From: Pseudomonadota bacterium
GTDB taxonomy: Bacteria; Desulfobacterota; Desulfobulbia; Desulfobulbales; SURF-16
NCBI GenBank assembly: GCA_018822545.1
Contig: JAHJKA010000072.1
Location: 1-64,000, forward strand
Length of the DNA stretch: 64,000 nt
Direction of reading: 5' to 3'
Shown here one piece after another: positions 1,879 through 37,685 of this stretch. The notes below the pieces were generated by a model. That model ran no database searches. It was not told the DNA's origin and worked only from the letters and a program-made list of their open reading frames with translations. The position numbers and the translations under genes are program-made. Within the stretch, counting starts at the first letter, position 1, and every line of letters starts with the position of its first letter.

Positions 1879-3222
1879 TTATTTAACATATCCCCAGTCT
1901 GTCAAACGTTGCCGAGCATGACTTGCAGCATCTCCCTGGGAAACCTGCTGCAGATATCTATTATATTCACGAGCGGCCTTCTCCTTTTCGCCCATACCAT
2001 CAAGGGTAATTCCTTTCAAAAAAACCATCTGGCTATTGCCAGGCATGATCTGATCAAAGCTTGCGAAATCCCCATAGGCTCCAACAAAATCTTTCAAAGC
2101 GAGCTTGCTGATCCCGCTAATCTGTATAGCCTGGGCCTCTGAAGGATAGACCTTTCTGGCCATCGTTGCGTAACGCAATGCCTCCTGATCCTTTTTCAAC
2201 GCCATCTTACACTTGGCCATCATAAGTAATGCCGCATAATCATTTGCAACTTTGTTGAGAGCTGAGGCAAAAGAGATCTCCGCCTCACTGAATTTTTGTT
2301 CAGCCATGTGGCTGGCGCCATCCTGCATATCAAGCAGGGCCGGCTTTATTCTTCGCACGGATACGGTATTATCCATATAACGTTCGCGCAGCAAGGTTTT
2401 CTTGAGCTTGTCCCCATATTCTCCAGCGGCCCGTTGGCGGGCCGCATCGAGCCGATCCTGGCTCATGGGGTGAGTGGAGAACATCAGTTCCAGGGCGTTG
2501 GGCTTATACTGTGACTTCTGAACCAAAAGAGCCATGAGCCCTTCCATACCTCTGGGATTGTAACCAGCCCCAACCATGTATTGCATGCCAAGACGATCTG
2601 CCTCCCTTTCATCGTCACGGCTATAACTGGCCAAAAGGGCGCCGGCCCCCATACCCCCTATTTTTTCAAGATAAGGGGCATAACTGGCATATTCACCACT
2701 ACGAACATAGCCGCTGCCGCCAGCCAGGGCCAACTGGATCAAGGTCCCCTTGGTCATGCGCTCGGCAGTATGCCGGGCATTGACATGGCCTATCTCATGG
2801 CCAAGCAAGGCGGCCAATTCCGCCTCATTATCAAGCTCCACAAGGATTCCCCTGGTCGCGGCAATGGAACCACCGGGAAAAGCATAGGCATTAACATAGG
2901 CGGCATTGACGCCACGAAAGCTGTAAGGCATCTTCGGGCGGTGGGAAATGGCAGCAATAGACATCCCCACTTCACCCAGGTAGGCGTTTAAAGCCTTATC
3001 CTGACAAGGTCCATAATCCATGGAAAACTGCTGGGGCGACTGCTTGGTGTCAATGGCAATTTCCTCACCTTCGCTCATCAAAACCAGCTGTTTTTTCCCG
3101 GTGACAGGATCTATCGCACAACCGGCAAGAGCAAATCCAGCAGTGGAAAGCGAAAGGAGCCATAAAAAATCACGGCGATTAAGACAGCGTTTGGACAGGC
3201 GAACAGTAAATGTGTCATCCAT
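1879..3222 (-). CDS. M48-family metalloprotease lipoprotein with TPR tail (BepA-like)
   Basis: A 447-residue zinc metallopeptidase. HEIGH at 142-146 is the HExxH zinc motif, and the downstream EREADRLG supplies the third ligand. The N-terminus carries RRDFLWLL, a twin-arginine type motif, followed by a hydrophobic stretch and a lipobox ending LAGC (Cys35). It is therefore probably a folded-exported lipoprotein facing the periplasm. The C-terminal third (about 290-440) is helical and TPR-like (EAEISFASALNKVANDYAALL), as in BepA/YfgC proteins that clear stalled outer-membrane proteins. The gene begins 15 bases after the HDOD gene and is probably co-transcribed with it. The family call is firm; the quality-control role is inferred. 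Confidence 0.88.
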   Translation of the reverse strand: MDDTFTVRLSKRCLNRRDFLWLLSLSTAGFALAGCAIDPVTGKKQLVLMSEGEEIAIDTKQSPQQFSMDYGPCQDKALNAYLGEVGMSIAAISHRPKMPYSFRGVNAAYVNAYAFPGGSIAATRGILVELDNEAELAALLGHEIGHVNARHTAERMTKGTLIQLALAGGSGYVRSGEYASYAPYLEKIGGMGAGALLASYSRDDEREADRLGMQYMVGAGYNPRGMEGLMALLVQKSQYKPNALELMFSTHPMSQDRLDAARQRAAGEYGDKLKKTLLRERYMDNTVSVRRIKPALLDMQDGASHMAEQKFSEAEISFASALNKVANDYAALLMMAKCKMALKKDQEALRYATMARKVYPSEAQAIQISGISKLALKDFVGAYGDFASFDQIMPGNSQMVFLKGITLDGMGEKEKAAREYNRYLQQVSQGDAASHARQRLTDWGYVK

Positions 3223-3237
3223 AAAACACCTGCAAAA

Positions 3238-4812
3238 TTAATTCTTTGACCTGACCTTCTGAATTGCCATCACAGCAAAATCCCGGAAGAGTCTAATTGT
3301 TTTCAACTGTTCCTGATCGATCTTTGGCCTGCCCTGTTTGCGATCAAGATAAATAAGAGCAATGGGCTTTTTGTCGATACAGATGGGAAAGAGAAAAACC
3401 GTGCGATCTTTAACAAGATATTGAAAGTTTTTCGGAAAGGCACCTTTGGCATTAACCGGAATCGCCATGTCCTTGCAGGTCGTCAGGGCGCGGGGAATAG
3501 CCTGTTCCTTGTTGGCCATGGGATGATCGAAGTTTAGAACACCATTGGCGTCAATGTCGCCAAGGCCATAGCGGCCTACCACAGAAATTTTTGAGGCCTG
3601 GATACTGAGAATCCCCATAATCACCCGGTCAAAACCGATCCCCCGATAAAGAGATTCCAGGAGATTAACATAAAACTCATCAAGTTTAATTTCACTACCC
3701 ATCAGGGTTTCCGTCATCTCACGGATAAAATCGTTGACCGATTTATCAGAGGAAGGAAGGGGTTCAAGTTCCGTAACGCACTCATCCCTCTTACCTGTCC
3801 CCTTTCCACCACCATCATCAGCAGGCATATATCTCTTCCTGCCAATGGCTTTACCGCCATACTCGCTGACCTGCTTAATATTGTTACGGATATTGAGCTT
3901 TGACAGGCCATAACGTATGGAGTCTGAAACATCTTCTGAGGTATCCACACTCTGATCCAGACGCTCGATGGCCTCCTCAAGATCCACCTTAAACATCGGG
4001 CCGAACTTCTTGAAAATAGCATCAAGGTCGCCGCCAAGACACACCTTGTCTGTAAATTCATTAGTAAAACTAGACAAGTTCTGCAAATAACCCTCAGCAT
4101 CAAACTTGTTTTTGGGCTTCTCCATCTCAACGGCCATGGAACCGATAATCTTTTCAGACATGTTCCAAAACTTGGCGACCTCCCGACCAAGCTCGTTATA
4201 CGTTAAATCATCGAGCAGTGATCGGGCTGCCTTTTCTTCAGGAACACCTTCACCAACTTGCCTTTGAATATCCTTATAAATGTCAGGCATATAAATACAG
4301 GTGATAATCTTACCTAGATGATGCAACAGGGCACAAATAAAAGCCTCTTCAGGCAGAACATTGATATTCTTTGCCACCACCATCTCGCGAGCCTGCAGCC
4401 CACTCAAGAAAGAGCGGGTAAGGATCTTTGAAATTTCCTCTTTTTCCACCCCTGACTTAAGAAAATCCTCAAAAAGAGCAATGGCGGTTGCCAGATCACG
4501 AACACCATCAAAGCCAAGAATAGTGACGGCCTTTGAAATAGAACTAATCGAATGACCTATGGAATAGTAGGCTGAATTGACCACTTGCAGAACCTTATTG
4601 GTCAAAGAATAATCTTTTAAGATAACCTTGGCCAGGTCATAGGCCGCACTTCTATTAGAGTGGGCAAGACTGATAAGCTCCTGCACATTGCTCGACATGG
4701 CAGGGAGTTCGCTGAGATTTATTTTAGCAAAAATAGAAGCAAGTTTGCCGGATGGTTCCTGAGTCTGGTTCGTCATAGGCATAAAAGAAGAATCGTCTGT
4801 GAAATAGCTCAT
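3238..4812 (-). CDS. HDOD domain protein with C-terminal GAF-like domain
   Basis: A 524-residue soluble protein. Residues about 30-250 form an HDOD domain (LPAMSSNVQELISLAHS, VILKDYSLTNKVLQVVNSAYY, ISKAVTILGFDGVRDLA, LLHHLGKI). HDOD is a phosphodiesterase-like fold that usually lacks HD hydrolase activity and acts in signalling. A low-complexity linker follows (about 300-360). Residues about 370-515 look like a GAF domain (LLESLYRGIGFDRVIMGIL, FPICIDKKPIALIYLDR). It is the first gene of a minus-strand pair with the lipoprotein protease and is divergent from the FHA operon. Met11 and Met13 are alternative starts. The ligand is unknown. Confidence 0.87.
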   Translation of the reverse strand: MSYFTDDSSFMPMTNQTQEPSGKLASIFAKINLSELPAMSSNVQELISLAHSNRSAAYDLAKVILKDYSLTNKVLQVVNSAYYSIGHSISSISKAVTILGFDGVRDLATAIALFEDFLKSGVEKEEISKILTRSFLSGLQAREMVVAKNINVLPEEAFICALLHHLGKIITCIYMPDIYKDIQRQVGEGVPEEKAARSLLDDLTYNELGREVAKFWNMSEKIIGSMAVEMEKPKNKFDAEGYLQNLSSFTNEFTDKVCLGGDLDAIFKKFGPMFKVDLEEAIERLDQSVDTSEDVSDSIRYGLSKLNIRNNIKQVSEYGGKAIGRKRYMPADDGGGKGTGKRDECVTELEPLPSSDKSVNDFIREMTETLMGSEIKLDEFYVNLLESLYRGIGFDRVIMGILSIQASKISVVGRYGLGDIDANGVLNFDHPMANKEQAIPRALTTCKDMAIPVNAKGAFPKNFQYLVKDRTVFLFPICIDKKPIALIYLDRKQGRPKIDQEQLKTIRLFRDFAVMAIQKVRSKN

Positions 4813-5065
4813 TAATATCTCTAAACTATTATACGTTTTTTAGCCTTTTCCACCAGCAGAATGATAGATTTACACCAGAAGCCGTAAAAGGAAACAACCT
4901 GGGCACAGCCAAAGACAGTTCACACCTCTCCTCTCGGCGAAAAAAGATGCCCTTTTTAAATCCATCCCCTCACCTCAACATCATACTATGAGCGCCATTT
5001 ATCACCAAACCGCAACAAAGTATGGAAAAGCACGCCTAATTTCTGTATGGTTGAAATGACAACTA

Positions 5066-5083
5066 TTTGATAAAATTTAGCAT
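5066..5083 (+). promoter_or_regulatory. Possible extended -10 promoter of the FHA operon
   Basis: TGATAAAAT at 5068-5076 fits an extended -10 element (TGnTATAAT with one mismatch); I see no good -35. A start point near 5083 would leave a leader of about ten bases before the ATG at 5092. The absence of a Shine-Dalgarno sequence there would fit a nearly leaderless mRNA. Weak evidence. Confidence 0.25.
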
Positions 5084-5091
5084 CCTAATTT

Positions 5092-6024
5092 ATGTCAGCC
5101 ATTCTTGTTTTCAAAAATAAGCCTTCAATGCCGCCCTGGGATCTACGAGGGAAGAGTACCTTCCGTATTGGTCGGCATCCGGAGAATGATTTTATCCTGC
5201 AGGAATCATGGATTTCCAGGCGCCATGCCATGATCCAGCAGGAATCCAACCAACACTACCATATTATTGATCTTGGCAGTGCCAACGGTACCTTTGTCAA
5301 TGGCAGTCGGATTGTCACCCCCACTCCGATGCACACGGGTGACATTATTGCCCTGGGCAAGACAGAACTCATTTTCAACCACCAATCCGCCCCAAAACTA
5401 AACCATACCTCTCTCCAGAACCTTGGTGATGAAACCATTGCCTTTGTCAACAAGAAGCTGGTGACTATCCTTGTCTGCGACATCCACAGATACACCGAGC
5501 TTTCTGAAGCCGTGGGCAATGAGCCCATCTCAAAGCTTCTCCTGGACTGGAACAAAAAAGCCACCCAGATTATTCGTAAGTATGATGGCCAGGTGGACAA
5601 ATTCATCGGTGATGCGGTTCTGGCCTTTTGGCTCCAAGATGATAAGGATCATCTTGAAAAGGTACTTTCAGCTGCCATGGATATTAACCAGATAACAGCC
5701 ATCCTGGGTGAAAAGTTACATTTCCCCTGGCCGCTTACCACCGGTGCAGCCATCAACAGTGGCATGATTATGCTGGGAAATCTCGGTGCAGACGGCTCCC
5801 GTGACTTCACCATGGTCGGCGACGCCGTCAATGTGGCATTTCGCCTTGAAAGCCAAACAGAAGCGCATACCAAAGAAGTGATTCTTGGTCAGAGCACCTA
5901 TGAACAACTGCGCCAGCACCATGACATTTTCACCCCACAAACTTTTGTTTTAAAAGGTAAAAACGACAAGGTACAAGGATACACCACCACCTTCATCAAA
6001 CTCGCAACCGCTCTTAAGATGTAA
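5092..6024 (+). CDS. FHA domain - class III adenylate cyclase fusion
   Basis: 310 residues. The N-terminal FHA domain (about 8-98) has the phosphothreonine-binding signature residues: Gly27-Arg28, Ser42-Arg43 and His45, and SANGTFVNG at 63-71. A class III nucleotide cyclase domain follows (about 122-305). Asp130 and Asp174 are the likely metal ligands, Lys170 the purine-specifying lysine, and Asn247 and Arg251 the transition-state residues in VGDAVNVAFRLE. Thr240 sits where many cyclases have Asp, as in class IIIb enzymes. All catalytic residues appear present, so it should make cAMP. No membrane segment is visible. The FHA domain suggests recruitment to phosphorylated Thr made by the kinase two genes downstream. 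First gene of a four-gene operon. Confidence 0.9.
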   Translation: MSAILVFKNKPSMPPWDLRGKSTFRIGRHPENDFILQESWISRRHAMIQQESNQHYHIIDLGSANGTFVNGSRIVTPTPMHTGDIIALGKTELIFNHQSAPKLNHTSLQNLGDETIAFVNKKLVTILVCDIHRYTELSEAVGNEPISKLLLDWNKKATQIIRKYDGQVDKFIGDAVLAFWLQDDKDHLEKVLSAAMDINQITAILGEKLHFPWPLTTGAAINSGMIMLGNLGADGSRDFTMVGDAVNVAFRLESQTEAHTKEVILGQSTYEQLRQHHDIFTPQTFVLKGKNDKVQGYTTTFIKLATALKM

Positions 6025-6068
6025 ATTAGCGTCACCTGAAACAAACAAGAACAGGACAGGACAGAGAT

Positions 6069-6770
6069 ATGAGTAAATGGGCCATCATGCTGCAGAACAA
6101 AGTAATTAAAGAATTTGAGATTCATGAGGGTGAACGTCTTATCATCGGCCGCGGCGATGACGCCAACGTCCGAATTGACAATACCGCCATCTCAAGACAC
6201 CATGCCGCCCTTGAAATGCAAAACGGCAAACCATTCCTCCAGGATCTTTGCAGCCTGAACGGTTCCATGGTCAATGGCAATAAAATTGACTTTATCCAGC
6301 TCTCAGAAGGCGACGAGGTGATGCTGAGCAAATTCTCCCTGGTCCGTGGCGATGATTTTGAAGGGAAACAACGGGTATCCACATCAGCGCTGCCCATGGA
6401 TCTTGAAGATGCCACTATTTTTGCACCCGGCAAACCAAAGGCCAAAAAAGAAGAGAAAACTCCAGGTCAAAACGTATTCCACCTCAAGGTCCTTAGCGGC
6501 AGCGCCACCCCAAGTACTGTGCCGCTGGCAGGCCGGACCAGTATTAAAATTGGCAAAGCCGACAACAGTGACATCATCACTCCTGGATTTTTCATCTCTG
6601 CCAACCAGTGTTTTATCAACAAGAGGGAGGATGGTTATCACATCATGCCCCAGAGTGGCTTCATCAAAACAATGCTGAACGGCCAAGTGTTAAAATCTCC
6701 GAAAAAACTACACCCAGGTGATATTATTTCCATCCGCAGTCATCAGATCAGGTTTGAGCAAATCACCTAA
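6069..6770 (+). CDS. Double FHA-domain adaptor protein
   Basis: 233 residues with two FHA-like domains and no enzymatic domain. FHA1 (about 5-92) is canonical: Gly27-Arg28, SRHHA at 42-46, and SLNGSMVNG at 62-70. A charged linker (about 105-135) contains EDATIFAPGK. FHA2 (about 138-232) keeps the fold pattern (IKIGKADNSD, LNGQVL, GDIISI) but has SANQC where SRxH is expected, so it probably does not bind phosphothreonine in the usual way. It lies 44 bases after the cyclase and 22 before the kinase start, and is preceded by a purine-rich stretch (GGACAGGACAGAG). It is best read as an adaptor for the neighbouring kinase. Confidence 0.85.
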   Translation: MSKWAIMLQNKVIKEFEIHEGERLIIGRGDDANVRIDNTAISRHHAALEMQNGKPFLQDLCSLNGSMVNGNKIDFIQLSEGDEVMLSKFSLVRGDDFEGKQRVSTSALPMDLEDATIFAPGKPKAKKEEKTPGQNVFHLKVLSGSATPSTVPLAGRTSIKIGKADNSDIITPGFFISANQCFINKREDGYHIMPQSGFIKTMLNGQVLKSPKKLHPGDIISIRSHQIRFEQIT

Positions 6771-6792
6771 TAAAAAAAACTCACGAGTGAAC

Positions 6793-9231
6793 ATGCACTT
6801 TGCAACCGATGCCCACCAAGACGCCACAGTGATACTGGCTCCTTCTTTGTCCAAACAAGACAAGGAGCCTTCGACGTGGCATATTGGAGACATCATCAAT
6901 GACCGTTATAAAATTGAAGCAATTTATAATGGCGCCATGGGCACGGTCTTTATAGCAGACCACCTCACCTGGCGGGTCAAGATGGCCATCAAGGTACCGC
7001 GCCCTGATGTCGTGTCTTGTAAAGAAGGCATCCAGCGCATTCTCGCTGAAGCAAATGCCTGGATTGACCTTGGTCTCCATCCCAATATTGCGGCCTGTTA
7101 TTTTGTCAAGAAACAGAATACGGCCGTTCAGATTTTCACCGAATATGTTAACGGTGGCACCCTGGCAGACTGGATCAGTAAGGATCGTTTACGCAACAGG
7201 CGTGACGCCCTTTCTATTGCCATCCAATTTTGCAATGGCATGGAACACACCCATTCCAAAAAAATAATCCATCGCGACATCAAACCCCAGAATATCCTGC
7301 TCACCAGAGATGGTCTTGTCAAAATAACGGATTTTGGCATTCTGCGGCTGGTGGATGCAGATGTCTCTGCCGACCAGACAATGGTCACCGAAAACAAAGG
7401 CCTCGACAAAAATTGTACCGTTGGCTTTCGAGGCACCCTGAACTATGCCTCCCCCGAACAGCTGCTCAACACCCATCAGGTCGATTTCCGCACTGATATT
7501 TTTTCCTTTGGGCTGTGCCTCTGGATGATGTTCTGTGGCAAACGCCCCTACAGCCATAACAGTGAAGATGTCTGCCCGACACCTATCTCCTGTTACCGGG
7601 ACATTCCGCTCTCCCAGTCCATGGTCCATATGCTTAAAAAATGCGTCCAGCATGATCCGGCCGACAGGTATCAAAATTTTCAGGAACTTCGTCACGACCT
7701 GCACCAGATATACCTGGATCTCTTCCAGGTTGCCTGTCCCTATGCCCAAATGGGTCCGGTGAATCTTCAGGCAGAGCATCTCAATAACCGCGCCGTTTCC
7801 CTGGCTGAACTGGGGAAATTCAGTGAGGCCCGTGATTTTCTTCTACAGGCCTTGGAAATCAACGATCACCTTGCCGAGGCGGCTATCAATATGCACCTTC
7901 TGTCCTGGAGGGCTACCACCATCCCGCCAGAACAGATGCTTCGCCGCCTCAGCACCACCCAAAAAATATTCCCTGACCATGAGCAACTCAAGAAACTGCT
8001 AGCCGAGGTTGAAACGAGCCTGACCGCTGCCAAGTCAGACAGGCATATTCCGCCTGAACTGATTCTCTGCCCTCCTGAAACGCCCATGGAGATTTTCCGC
8101 AAGAATCAACTGCAGCATTCCATTCGCGAAAATATTTACAACCTCGCCAGGGCCGGCAAATTAACGCTCAGCTTTGAGACTCTATGCCAACACTGGCAGG
8201 AAACCGGGTTCGGTCCCGATGCTGGTCTGGAAAAAGTCTATGACAATCTGGCCACCAAGGGGATCAAAAAAAGTGTCCTCGCCCTCCAACGCAAACGTCT
8301 GGCGCAGTTACCGGAGGCCACCCCCTTCATGTGTTACAACCCGGCCACAGGCAGACTCGTTTGCGCCACAAGGGCTGGTTATTTTCGCATCCTGAATTTT
8401 AACCGCAAATGGTCCATGGCCAGTAGCGATATTGTCTCTAAATCTGTGGACTCCACAACCCAGGGCTTCCGCCTTACCAACGCCAGCATTACCTCCCTGG
8501 CCCTGTGTCCTTCCGGCAGTTATCTGGCCATTGGCCAGGAGGGCGGCAAAGTATTACTCAAATCCTTGGTGGATCATAAAAAAACCATCATCAATTGCGG
8601 CAAAGTGGCAATCAGCACCCTCCTCTTCAGCCAGGATAATCGCTGGCTTGCCGCTGGCAGCACTGATGGTAAAATTGTTTTTTTTGACCTGGTTAAAAAT
8701 GGAAGATATACCTTCCAGGCCAGCTCTGCCATCAATGACATGGCCCTGCTGGCGGGCGGCCTCAATTTTGTAGTGGGTTGTGATGACGGTACGCTGCAAA
8801 TTTGGGATTTTGCCGGGCAGAAACTTACGAGGGAGATCGAGGCCCACGTTCTTCCCATTAAAAAGCTGTGTCTATCATCCTCCGGCAAACAACTGGCCAC
8901 GGTCAGTGAAGACAGGCTCATCAGGGTATGGGACATGCACGAATCAACCTGCATCCGTACCATTGAGGATACTGATGACTTATCCACTTCCATCCTCCTT
9001 ACCGATGATGGTTTCAGTATGATAACTGGCAGTGAATCTGATATTGTCAAGGTATGGGATATCACCAAGGCCACTCATGTCTTGCTGGTCGATAGTCGGG
9101 GAGACGGTGTTTGCACCCTCATCCCGGGACCGGACCCGGCAACCTTTATTGCCGGCAACCAGAACGGCTCTGTTGTCTTATGGAAACTCTTTTACGACCT
9201 TAAACTTAATAATATGACCACAGGTAGATAG
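6793..9231 (+). CDS. Ser/Thr protein kinase with TPR-like linker and WD40 propeller
   Basis: 812 residues from the ATG at 6793. The frame is open further upstream to an ATG at 6718, but that would overlap the FHA gene by 53 bases; a GTG at 6787 is another option. Kinase domain about 35-315: glycine loop NGAMGTV (46-52), Lys67 in MAIKVPRP, HRDIKPQN (160-167), DFG (180-182) and the APE-like SPEQ. All catalytic residues are present, so it is probably active. A helical, TPR-like region follows (LNNRAVSLAELGKFSEARDF). From about 490 to the end are WD40 blades (LQIWDF, IRVWDM, VKVWDI, VVLWKL). No membrane helix is seen, unlike PASTA-type kinases. Residues 10-12 (DAT) may be an autophosphorylation site. 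Confidence 0.9.
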   Translation: MHFATDAHQDATVILAPSLSKQDKEPSTWHIGDIINDRYKIEAIYNGAMGTVFIADHLTWRVKMAIKVPRPDVVSCKEGIQRILAEANAWIDLGLHPNIAACYFVKKQNTAVQIFTEYVNGGTLADWISKDRLRNRRDALSIAIQFCNGMEHTHSKKIIHRDIKPQNILLTRDGLVKITDFGILRLVDADVSADQTMVTENKGLDKNCTVGFRGTLNYASPEQLLNTHQVDFRTDIFSFGLCLWMMFCGKRPYSHNSEDVCPTPISCYRDIPLSQSMVHMLKKCVQHDPADRYQNFQELRHDLHQIYLDLFQVACPYAQMGPVNLQAEHLNNRAVSLAELGKFSEARDFLLQALEINDHLAEAAINMHLLSWRATTIPPEQMLRRLSTTQKIFPDHEQLKKLLAEVETSLTAAKSDRHIPPELILCPPETPMEIFRKNQLQHSIRENIYNLARAGKLTLSFETLCQHWQETGFGPDAGLEKVYDNLATKGIKKSVLALQRKRLAQLPEATPFMCYNPATGRLVCATRAGYFRILNFNRKWSMASSDIVSKSVDSTTQGFRLTNASITSLALCPSGSYLAIGQEGGKVLLKSLVDHKKTIINCGKVAISTLLFSQDNRWLAAGSTDGKIVFFDLVKNGRYTFQASSAINDMALLAGGLNFVVGCDDGTLQIWDFAGQKLTREIEAHVLPIKKLCLSSSGKQLATVSEDRLIRVWDMHESTCIRTIEDTDDLSTSILLTDDGFSMITGSESDIVKVWDITKATHVLLVDSRGDGVCTLIPGPDPATFIAGNQNGSVVLWKLFYDLKLNNMTTGR

Positions 9232-9233
9232 TT

Positions 9234-9986
9234 TTGATTAATTTTTTCCGCGCCATATTTTCCAATAGAAAGATCAACCTTACCTGTTTCGGGCGGACTG
9301 ACACAGGAAAGGTTCGCCAGCACAATGAAGACAGTTTCGCCCTTCGTCCGGACCAGAACCTTTACCTGGTTGCTGATGGCATGGGGGGCCACAAGGGTGG
9401 AGAAATTGCAAGCCGACTGGCCATCGAAGAAGTTATTGCGGCGATCCCCATTACAGAACTCAAGAAGAGCCGTTTCTCCCCGGAGGCCTGCCGCCATCTT
9501 TTACTTGAGGGTTTTCGCAAAGCCAACGACAGCGTCTTGGCCTATGGTCAAAACGATTCTGACATCGCCGGCTTGGGTTGCACCCTGATTGGCTGCCTGA
9601 TCATGGGGAACCAGGCTCACATCTGCCATGTAGGCGATGTCCGAGCTTACCTAATCAAAGACAACAGCATGGTGCAGGTTACTTCGGATCATTCCCTGGC
9701 TGCCATGACTTCTGGAAATGACGAATCACAGCCCAAAAACATTGTCACTCGCTGTATAGGGGTCAGCCTGGACAACAGTCCAGATTATCATCTCCTGGAA
9801 CTGGATTCCCAAGACCAGCTTCTTTTCTGCTCCGACGGTCTCTGGAATATGGTTGATGACGATACAATCTTTGCCATAATCAGCAAGGCACCAACTCCGG
9901 AATCTGCCTGTAATCAGCTTATTATTCAGGCAAATGAAGCCGGCGGCCGTGATAATATCACCGCTGTCATCCTCAAAGTCGACTAA
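9234..9986 (+). CDS. PP2C-family Ser/Thr phosphatase (PppA/PrpC-like)
   Basis: 250 residues, starting at a TTG three bases after the kinase stop; the first internal ATG lies inside the catalytic core, so the TTG start (or another non-ATG codon) is needed. PP2C motifs in order: GRTDTGKVRQHNEDSF near 21-36, ADGMGGHKGGEIAS, CHVGDVRAYLI, SDHSL, CSDGLWNMVDDD and GGRDNITAVIL. The metal-binding Asp residues are all present, so it should be an active Mn/Mg-dependent phosphatase. It presumably reverses phosphorylation by the adjacent kinase, as in bacterial Stk/Stp pairs. It is the last gene of the operon and converges on nrdJ. Confidence 0.92.
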   Translation: MINFFRAIFSNRKINLTCFGRTDTGKVRQHNEDSFALRPDQNLYLVADGMGGHKGGEIASRLAIEEVIAAIPITELKKSRFSPEACRHLLLEGFRKANDSVLAYGQNDSDIAGLGCTLIGCLIMGNQAHICHVGDVRAYLIKDNSMVQVTSDHSLAAMTSGNDESQPKNIVTRCIGVSLDNSPDYHLLELDSQDQLLFCSDGLWNMVDDDTIFAIISKAPTPESACNQLIIQANEAGGRDNITAVILKVD

Positions 9987-10050: not shown

Positions 10051-10122
10051 TAAACACAAAGGCACAAAGACACAGAGGCATTGCATGAAGAAACTCTCTG
10101 TGTCTTTATGCCTTTGTGTTTA
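10051..10122. repeat. Near-perfect 27-base inverted repeat
   Basis: The left arm at 10051-10077 (beginning TAAACACAAAGGCACAAAGA) pairs with the right arm at 10096-10122 with one G-T mismatch; the spacer is 18 bases. The arms are built from short CACAAAG/CACAGAG units. The hairpin could act as a bidirectional transcription terminator or be a dispersed intergenic repeat. I recall similar AAAGGCACAAAGACAC-like sequences in other environmental genomes, but this is not checked here. Confidence 0.8.
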
Positions 10123-10227: not shown

Positions 10228-10277
10228 CCATACAAAAGGGGGGTCGAAAGAATTCTTTCGACCCCCCTTTTGTATGG
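10228..10277. terminator. Perfect 50-base palindrome, probable bidirectional terminator
   Basis: Symmetric about 10252/10253 with no mismatch; the core is AAAAGGGGGGTCGAAAGAA and its complement. As RNA it would form a very stable hairpin with a GGGGGG/CCCCCC stem, flanked by A4 on one side and U4 on the other in either orientation. It lies 26 bases beyond the nrdJ stop and between convergent genes, which fits a shared terminator. Confidence 0.7.
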
Positions 10278-18103: not shown

Positions 18104-19234
18104 ATGCCTGAAACTTCACCCCGAAAAATACCCTGCGACCCGGCCCATCATATCCGTCAGATCTTTATTGAGGAAAGCTGTGCCGACCTGGCCTATGTCC
18201 ACGAAATCTGTGAACGGGCCCAACTGCCCACCCAGATTATAGCCGACCGCAGCGATCCCCCGGTCGCCTATGGCTCCTTCCCAAAGAATCTCCAGATCGG
18301 CAAACAACACCTTGTCCTGAGTAAAAATCGGGGCTGTTTTTTTAAGCCCTGCCCGGGCACCAGAGAGTATCGCTGCTGCGATTACCATGTACTCAATATC
18401 GGCATGGGTTGCCCCATGGATTGCGTATACTGCATCCTCCAGGCCTACCTGAACAAGCCCTGGCTCACCTTCTTTGTCAACAGCCATGACCTCTTTGCCG
18501 AGCTTGACCTGGCCTTTAAGCGGACCAGTCAATTTTGGCGAATCGGCACCGGGGAATTCACAGACTCCCTGGCCATAGACCATATCACCAGGCTGAGCCC
18601 CCTGTTGATTAACTATATGCGCGACAAAACCAAGGGCGTCCTTGAGCTGAAAACCAAATCGGTTTCCATCCAACATCTCGCAAATCTTGATCATAACGGC
18701 AGAACGGTGATAGCCTGGTCGTTAAATGCCCCGGCCATCATGACCAAGGAAGAGCTCCACACCGCAAGCCTTGACGAGCGCCTGGCCGCAGCCTGCCAGG
18801 TCGCTGACATGGGCTACAAATTAGCCTTCCATTTTGATCCGATCATCTACCATGATGGCTGGCAAGAGGGCTATAGCGCCACAATCAAGAAGCTCTTCGC
18901 CACTGTTCCCGCTGAAAAAATTGCCTGGATAAGCTTGGGTGCCCTGCGTTTTCTCCCGCAGCTGAAGGCCATCGCCCTCACCCGTTTTCCCGGCTCCACC
19001 TTTTTCCACGAAGAATTTATCCTGGGACTTGACAATAAATACCGCTATTTCAGGGCATTACGTGTTGAAATGTACAAGCATCTCTTAAATGAAATGCGGG
19101 CCCTGGCAAGCCCCCACACCTGTCTTTATTTCTGTATGGAAAGTGACGAGATCTGGCAGGAATGCGGTTTTACCCCAGGCAAGAGCCAAAGCCTGCCGGA
19201 CGATCTCGACACTGCCTTCACGCGCACTGCTTAA
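18104..19234 (+). CDS. Spore photoproduct lyase-like radical SAM protein
   Basis: 376 residues. The radical SAM 4Fe-4S motif is CPMDCVYC (Cys103, 107, 110), preceded by additional conserved-type cysteines (78, 83, 91, 92). The motifs RIGTGEFTDSLAIDH and LELKTKSVSIQHL match the SplB family, which repairs the spore thymine dimer. A C-terminal cysteine in LYFCMESDEIW may correspond to the H-atom-donor region, but I cannot align it here. No sporulation genes are in the window and the cell looks Gram-negative, so the real substrate may be another DNA lesion. Family firm, function uncertain. Confidence 0.85.
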   Translation: MPETSPRKIPCDPAHHIRQIFIEESCADLAYVHEICERAQLPTQIIADRSDPPVAYGSFPKNLQIGKQHLVLSKNRGCFFKPCPGTREYRCCDYHVLNIGMGCPMDCVYCILQAYLNKPWLTFFVNSHDLFAELDLAFKRTSQFWRIGTGEFTDSLAIDHITRLSPLLINYMRDKTKGVLELKTKSVSIQHLANLDHNGRTVIAWSLNAPAIMTKEELHTASLDERLAAACQVADMGYKLAFHFDPIIYHDGWQEGYSATIKKLFATVPAEKIAWISLGALRFLPQLKAIALTRFPGSTFFHEEFILGLDNKYRYFRALRVEMYKHLLNEMRALASPHTCLYFCMESDEIWQECGFTPGKSQSLPDDLDTAFTRTA

Positions 19235-37342: not shown

Positions 37343-37685
37343 AACGCACCTCCAAAAAATTCTATTTTAAAGAGACTAAAATCTTATTTGAAATCCTGTT
37401 CCACAACGGGAAGGATTTACATAAACAATAATCATCATCACCAGTGTGACAATATGCCACATTCACGATGACAGATGGAAGGCTATAAAAGAAAAGAAAC
37501 CGAATAAAGAAAATTCCCTGGAGAGAAGAGAAGAGAAGAGAAGAGAAGAGAAGAGAAGAGAAGAGAAGCAAGATTGCGCCGAAGCAAAAACGTCTCAGGT
37601 AGCCGGAAAACGGCTTACTGGCAATAAGATAAGAATATCACTCCGTCGTGGCGAACCTGAAAATCTGGACCTGGGAGTTTTGGAC
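37343..37685. other. Upstream region of the TPR-kor genes with a short tandem repeat
   Basis: About 343 bases between the purC terminator and the TPR gene. It contains the AGAGA repeat at 37522-37568. An open frame at 37446-37790 passes through it, but looks accidental (runs of Glu/Arg). Confidence 0.5.
37522..37568. repeat. Pentanucleotide tandem repeat, about 9.4 copies of AGAGA
   Basis: Nine perfect copies plus two bases of a sixth-phase AGAGA unit (reads GAAGA in other phase). Located roughly 180-225 bases upstream of the TPR gene start and outside any supported gene. Such short tandem arrays can change length by slipped-strand pairing. Confidence 0.9.

Follow-up and report, generated by a model that had tools for sequence, protein, structure and literature searches.

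The locus at positions 5092-9986 of the window, i.e. the entire 64,000-nucleotide stretch of DNA analysed here, raises the question of whether a Ser/Thr kinase, a PP2C-type phosphatase and a double-FHA adaptor, encoded together with an FHA–adenylyl cyclase, act as one signalling module with cAMP as its output. The window belongs to a 3.3-Mb draft genome, 85% complete, of an uncultured bacterium resembling sulfate reducers; the named relatives of this genome are Desulfobulbaceae MAGs. "Order" and "family" denote ranks of our genome comparison; the order is inferred to be, probably, Desulfobulbales.

Organisation of the locus

The four ORFs are all located on the plus strand and separated by 44, 22 and 2 bases. 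These coordinates and gaps had been given by a first-pass annotation and are borne out by the ORFs, as are, by Pfam and AlphaFold2 models, its identifications of an FHA–adenylate cyclase, a kinase with TPR-like and WD40 parts and a PP2C phosphatase. The run is not a chance arrangement, since other members of the window's family have the same gene order and many further families share its three-gene core. The divergent HDOD gene upstream is also part of the conserved locus. The features are:

3238..4812, minus strand: divergently transcribed HDOD-domain protein, 524 aa (Pfam HDOD 1.5e-39), adjoining the module across the order
4813..5091, no strand assigned: divergent intergenic region, presumed promoters (position only; promoter scan weak)
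5092..6024, plus strand: FHA–class III adenylyl cyclase (AC), 310 aa (Pfam FHA, Guanylate_cyc)
~5164-5358 and ~5449-5991, plus strand: FHA and cyclase domains of AC
5434..5436, plus strand: codon of Thr115 in the FHA–cyclase linker (GDETIAF), proposed phosphoacceptor (Thr conserved in an otherwise variable linker)
6069..6770, plus strand: double-FHA adaptor (FHA2), 233 aa (Pfam FHA, two stretches, 2.6e-27)
~6141-6326 and ~6543-6734, plus strand: first, canonical and second, degenerate FHA domain of FHA2
6414..6416, plus strand: codon of Thr116 in the inter-domain linker of FHA2 (EDATIF), proposed phosphoacceptor ([DE][AE]T[VI]F motif)
6793..9231, plus strand: soluble Ser/Thr kinase–TPR-like–WD40 protein (Pfam Pkinase/WD40; AlphaFold model)
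~6883-7728, ~7768-8259 and ~8263-9204, plus strand: kinase domain, TPR-like helices and WD40 beta-propeller
7417..7419, plus strand: codon of Thr209 in the kinase activation loop (CTVGFRGT), proposed from conservation as autophosphorylation and FHA docking site
9234..9986, plus strand: PP2C-type phosphatase, 250 aa, TTG start (Pfam PP2C 1.9e-16)
10051..10122, plus strand: possible terminator past the end of the operon, a 27-bp inverted repeat with 96% complementarity

The kinase ORF starts with ATG at 6793, and a longer frame opens with GTG at 6718. Positions 1879-3222 encode an M48 peptidase, the gene of which adjoins HDOD in many families or loci; past HDOD and this frequent neighbour the flanks are housekeeping-like and vary by lineage, and no function could be derived from the wider neighbourhood. 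A C-terminal GAF domain in the HDOD protein is unsupported by Pfam, and the protein was rejected as a further substrate as well, its variable linker being devoid of a DxT[VI]xF motif.

The interval between the operon and a ribonucleotide reductase gene contains a loopless perfect 25-bp palindrome at 10228-10277 (CCATACAAAAGGGGGGTCGAAAGAA/TTCTTT...), which is overlapped by an arm pair at 9995-10018/10266-10289. Elsewhere in the window, AGAGA is present in 9.4 perfect copies at 37522-37568, inside a short, probably spurious ORF, and positions 18104-19234 encode a radical SAM protein resembling spore-photoproduct lyase, in a Gram-negative lineage.

Proteins of the module

AC (Pfam FHA 6.4e-22, Guanylate_cyc 3.4e-11) reaches 43.5 bits against a Guanylate_cyc cut-off of 21.9 and, with its catalytic residues, meets the class III criterion. 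D130, K170, D174, T240, N247 and R251 are kept in all aligned family members and in nearly all other orthologues, one of which (G433) is without the catalytic Lys. The FHA pocket (GR/S/R/H/N) is likewise conserved in nearly all orthologues, i.e. a canonical FHA domain is positioned N-terminal to a nucleotide cyclase. In the AlphaFold2 model (mean pLDDT 81) both domains are joined by a low-confidence, disordered linker (residues 101-117). The best fold match of the cyclase domain is CyaB (3r5g), the closest solved FHA domains include GarA/OdhI, and the whole chain weakly matches 6hbz, the DgcB fold. The window genome possesses three further class III cyclase genes and eight cNMP-binding domains, which makes it probable that this cell uses cAMP as an established messenger.

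The identification of the second gene as a double-FHA adaptor holds in part: Pfam finds FHA twice, but the second domain does not possess the phosphothreonine-pocket residues, with GK in place of GR and QC where SRxH is expected. The missing phosphate-binding residues, together with invariant positions of its own (K163, Q180, C181), suggest a phosphate-independent contact for this second domain. All three FHA domains detected in the window genome are encoded in this operon, hence the kinase has no known rival FHA partner there. Additional FHA2 paralogues occur at loci L109, L111, L112 and L114 of the comparison, with no kinase of this type nearby and with drifted linker motifs.

The kinase (Pfam Pkinase 4.7e-44, and WD40; Pkinase 151.2 bits, cut-off 31.7) retains Lys67, HRD and DFG across orthologues and thus meets the criteria of Hanks-type kinases; the first P-loop Gly is replaced in the window's family. 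AlphaFold2 (mean pLDDT 84.5) places a kinase domain at ~30-312, helical repeats at 326-489 and a beta-propeller at 491-804, with the activation loop modelled at low confidence. The propeller matches WD40 structures, and the kinase domain has PDB matches to PASTA-type kinases. A catalytically dead kinase or cyclase had been named as an observation that would refute the proposed relay; in silico, the catalytic residues are kept across orthologues. Genome G145 contains a second WD40-kinase paralogue with a degenerate kinase (L216, 6980-9124), and similar paralogues are found in other family members. The PP2C phosphatase, with motifs intact in orthologues, scores 214.7 bits with the Stp1 model NF033484, narrowly under the cut-off of 230.

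Conservation and co-occurrence across the order

Gene set, conserved residues, linker motif and co-occurrence are read directly from sequence. The order AC–FHA2–kinase–PP2C recurs in the window's family, and most of these loci also have the HDOD gene upstream, in divergent orientation. Other families of the order possess HDOD←→FHA2–kinase–PP2C with no cyclase at the locus, and this is the constant core, which AC adjoins only in the window's family. A restriction of the cyclase gene to that family is nevertheless wrong: a profile of the family FHA-AC retrieves full-length orthologues across many further families of the order. These are not located at the locus; in some genomes they share its contig at a distance of ~20-90 kb. 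The genes neighbouring these unlinked copies, when compared, are uninformative on function. Outside the order, a single-sequence query against 198 genomes sampled from the phylum retrieved no full-length FHA-AC.

Our co-occurrence sample comprises 258 genomes of the order, many of them incomplete MAGs. FHA2 and AC are both present in 56 genomes and both absent from 187, while ten have FHA2 only and five AC only. Outside the window's family, the respective numbers are 39, 187, five and five (Fisher p=1.7e-33, not phylogeny-corrected). The two genes are present or absent together in entire families; the counts lack phylogenetic independence, and incompleteness affects many genomes. Five members of the window's family, where many genomes are likewise incomplete MAGs, possess the kinase without AC. 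Another family of the order has a larger protein with a C-terminal kinase domain, PP2C and a double-FHA gene in a row (L124, L125, L128), with no AC nearby.

Decay of the components is partly correlated. Neither FHA2 nor full-length FHA-AC was found in genomes G195 and G400, where the WD40-kinase relative has decayed and lost the VAIK Lys, the HRD Arg, the DFG Asp and the activation loop. In G291, which is without FHA2, the FHA-AC gene is split in two pieces. G208 has no detectable kinase, and its FHA2 motif is altered to DATTL with the AC motif kept. Counter to this pattern, three of the five genomes with AC and without FHA2 (G239, G398, G442) also have no detected kinase, and their AC is intact. 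Pseudokinase versions of the WD40-kinase without activation loop were observed on the minus strand at L204 (8862-11246) and L205 (8609-11203).

A shared threonine motif

The AC linker Thr is present in 17/17 family sequences and in every outside orthologue that covers the site, in a linker that is otherwise variable. Its context is usually [DE]xT[VI]AF, and it is located ~10 residues ahead of the cyclase core. FHA2 contains [DE][AE]T[VI]F (e.g. ETVF/ATIF) between its two domains in nearly all kinase-neighbouring copies of the order. In the kinase activation loop, xT[VI]GFRGT, T209 is at least 90% conserved, G211 and F212 are invariant, and T[VI]GF is present in most T-loops. AC linker and T-loop thus have T-[VI]-[AG]-F in common. 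In its loose form the motif is rare: the other ORFs at the loci compared, 156,713 residues in all, contain 29 matches, a count that includes the module proteins of the window itself. T209 is positioned five residues before the conserved GT, where PknB has an autophosphorylated Thr. Activation loops often carry Thr at this place, and the agreement of the T-loop with the motif is therefore partly expected.

The link between AC and the kinase module rests on unlinked co-occurrence, on the Thr motif that they share and on correlated decay, and as far as this comparison of genomes goes AC is its partner and not a passenger.

Comparison with known systems

PASTA kinase/Stp1 pairs (PknB, StkP, PrkC) resemble the present set in the kinase domain and in a PP2C near the Stp1 type, but no PASTA part is present here: the PASTA kinase model yields 182.6 bits (cut-off 450), and the C-terminal part is TPR-like and WD40. 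The NCBIfam OdhI model yields 50-54 bits against a cut-off of 200. Identity with the PASTA/Stp1, OdhI or TOMM kinase–cyclase families was rejected, all models remaining below their cut-offs.

Actinobacterial PknG/PknB–GarA/OdhI systems have in common with this module the TPR (in PknG), an FHA domain as kinase docking site, a conserved Thr motif near the FHA domain and FHA similarity. They differ in that GarA/OdhI act by binding enzymes, with no cyclase, whereas the kinase here carries a WD40 propeller. PknG recruits OdhI/GarA by way of their FHA domain, for which an autophosphorylated Thr of the kinase is the anchor, and then phosphorylates the ETTS motif (PMC8546545), and this two-step scheme of docking and phosphorylation fits the present module too.

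The nearest architecture is that of DgcB, an FHA–GGDEF protein of Bdellovibrio bacteriovorus, for which activation was proposed to occur when phosphorylated Thr14 of its tail binds the FHA domain (PMC6733907). DgcB also has the FHA domain N-terminal to a nucleotide cyclase and a Thr motif as proposed phospho-switch (PMC6733907). In contrast to AC, it is a GGDEF protein producing c-di-GMP, its Thr is located in the N-terminal tail and its kinase is unidentified; AC is a class III adenylyl cyclase with the Thr in a flexible linker, and its operon supplies a candidate kinase and phosphatase. CyaB (P. aeruginosa) and CyaC (Arthrospira) share catalytic fold and residues with AC, in which, unlike there, the regulatory domain is FHA.

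Proposed mechanism and alternatives

A phosphothreonine-to-cAMP relay, as suggested by the first-pass annotation, is the best-supported reading on sequence grounds, with phosphorylation, sign and input signal untested. The cyclase had been supposed to take the place of an output. It is not simply a substitute for the output of a T6SS-type system, being encoded as a partner of its own whose gene adjoins the core in the window's family alone. Under the control of its TPR and WD40 regions, whose input is unknown, the kinase would autophosphorylate its activation loop at Thr209, on which the canonical FHA domains of FHA2 and AC may dock. It would then phosphorylate the matching linker Thr in each partner, i.e. 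Thr115 in AC and Thr116 in FHA2. The phosphorylated AC linker could be captured by an FHA domain, which may belong to the same chain, to the dimer mate or to FHA2, and capture would move the element just ahead of the cyclase domain, altering the catalytic homodimer and cAMP synthesis. PP2C would strip the phosphates and reset the switch, and cAMP may act via CRP-like or other cNMP-binding proteins encoded elsewhere. Phosphorylation, docking, capture, sign and downstream output are inferred without biochemistry, as is cAMP production by AC, and the linker Thr may be phosphorylated by other kinases. With these reservations, we hold with some confidence, well short of certainty, that the locus specifies a module for phosphothreonine signalling in the cytosol, with cAMP as output, that follows this scheme from kinase to linker Thr to FHA capture. 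More tentative, and a proposition on which we lean slightly to the negative, is the complete cascade in which the AC linker mimics the kinase activation loop through T-[VI]-[AG]-F and FHA domains read both, for docking and then for switching.

Activation appears the more likely sign of the switch, by analogy with DgcB, the nearest architectural precedent, for which activation by the phosphorylated tail is proposed (PMC6733907). The main rival to activation is inhibition of the GarA type, in which phosphorylation turns the cyclase off and the linker closes on its own FHA domain, so that AC either comes free of the kinase or is locked as an inactive dimer; GarA and OdhI, which are known closed-state switches, are among the closest solved FHA relatives, but against the DgcB precedent we regard this sign as rather unlikely. 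Somewhat less probable still is that the FHA domain of AC only localises the cyclase on phosphorylated kinase or adaptor, with the linker Thr as docking phosphosite and bicarbonate- or ATP-type cues setting activity, so that the cAMP source is placed and not switched by the kinase. Such a role is compatible with the intact FHA pocket and with T240 at the purine-specificity position, as in CyaC-type cyclases among the closest folds. Nevertheless, the sole strictly kept linker residue is a Thr in a kinase-like motif, ~10 residues before the cyclase core, which suits switching better than tethering.

The output of the module might also be the adaptor or the HDOD protein, with AC a passenger in the operon, given that what stays constant is HDOD–FHA2–kinase–PP2C and that AC is missing from some genomes. 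We consider this improbable, as AC co-occurs with the module even where it is unlinked and carries the motif, and the window genome yielded no FHA domain beyond those of the operon. Finally, that the module is a regulatory arm displaced from a type VI secretion system hardly comes into question. Kinase, PP2C and FHA protein do resemble PpkA/PppA/Fha, and some family genomes have a T6SS, but secretion genes and a transmembrane kinase are lacking here and a cyclase is present. The absence of secretion genes noted earlier extends to all orthologous loci, at none of which the neighbourhood check recognised a T6SS gene, and the kinase is soluble, in agreement with the claim that no transmembrane kinase is encoded. 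With the TagH/VI_FHA model only 35.9 and 38.3 bits are reached (cut-off 120.25). Neither the window genome (85% complete) nor its genus has TssC/VipB, and the window genome is also without VasE; TssC is present in 8/22 family genomes, always on contigs other than that of the module, so the module is independent of T6SS. Its presence in genomes without TssC largely refutes this origin.

Significance

FHA switches and kinase–FHA pairs are already known. The open-access literature searched yielded neither a kinase–phosphatase–FHA set devoted to an adenylyl cyclase nor a report of a bacterial Ser/Thr kinase that regulates adenylyl cyclase via an FHA switch. DgcB gave the principle for c-di-GMP, with its kinase unidentified. 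Here, candidate kinase, phosphatase, adaptor and cyclase form one small soluble set with predicted phosphosites, and the coupling of two major signalling systems is therefore testable with purified proteins.
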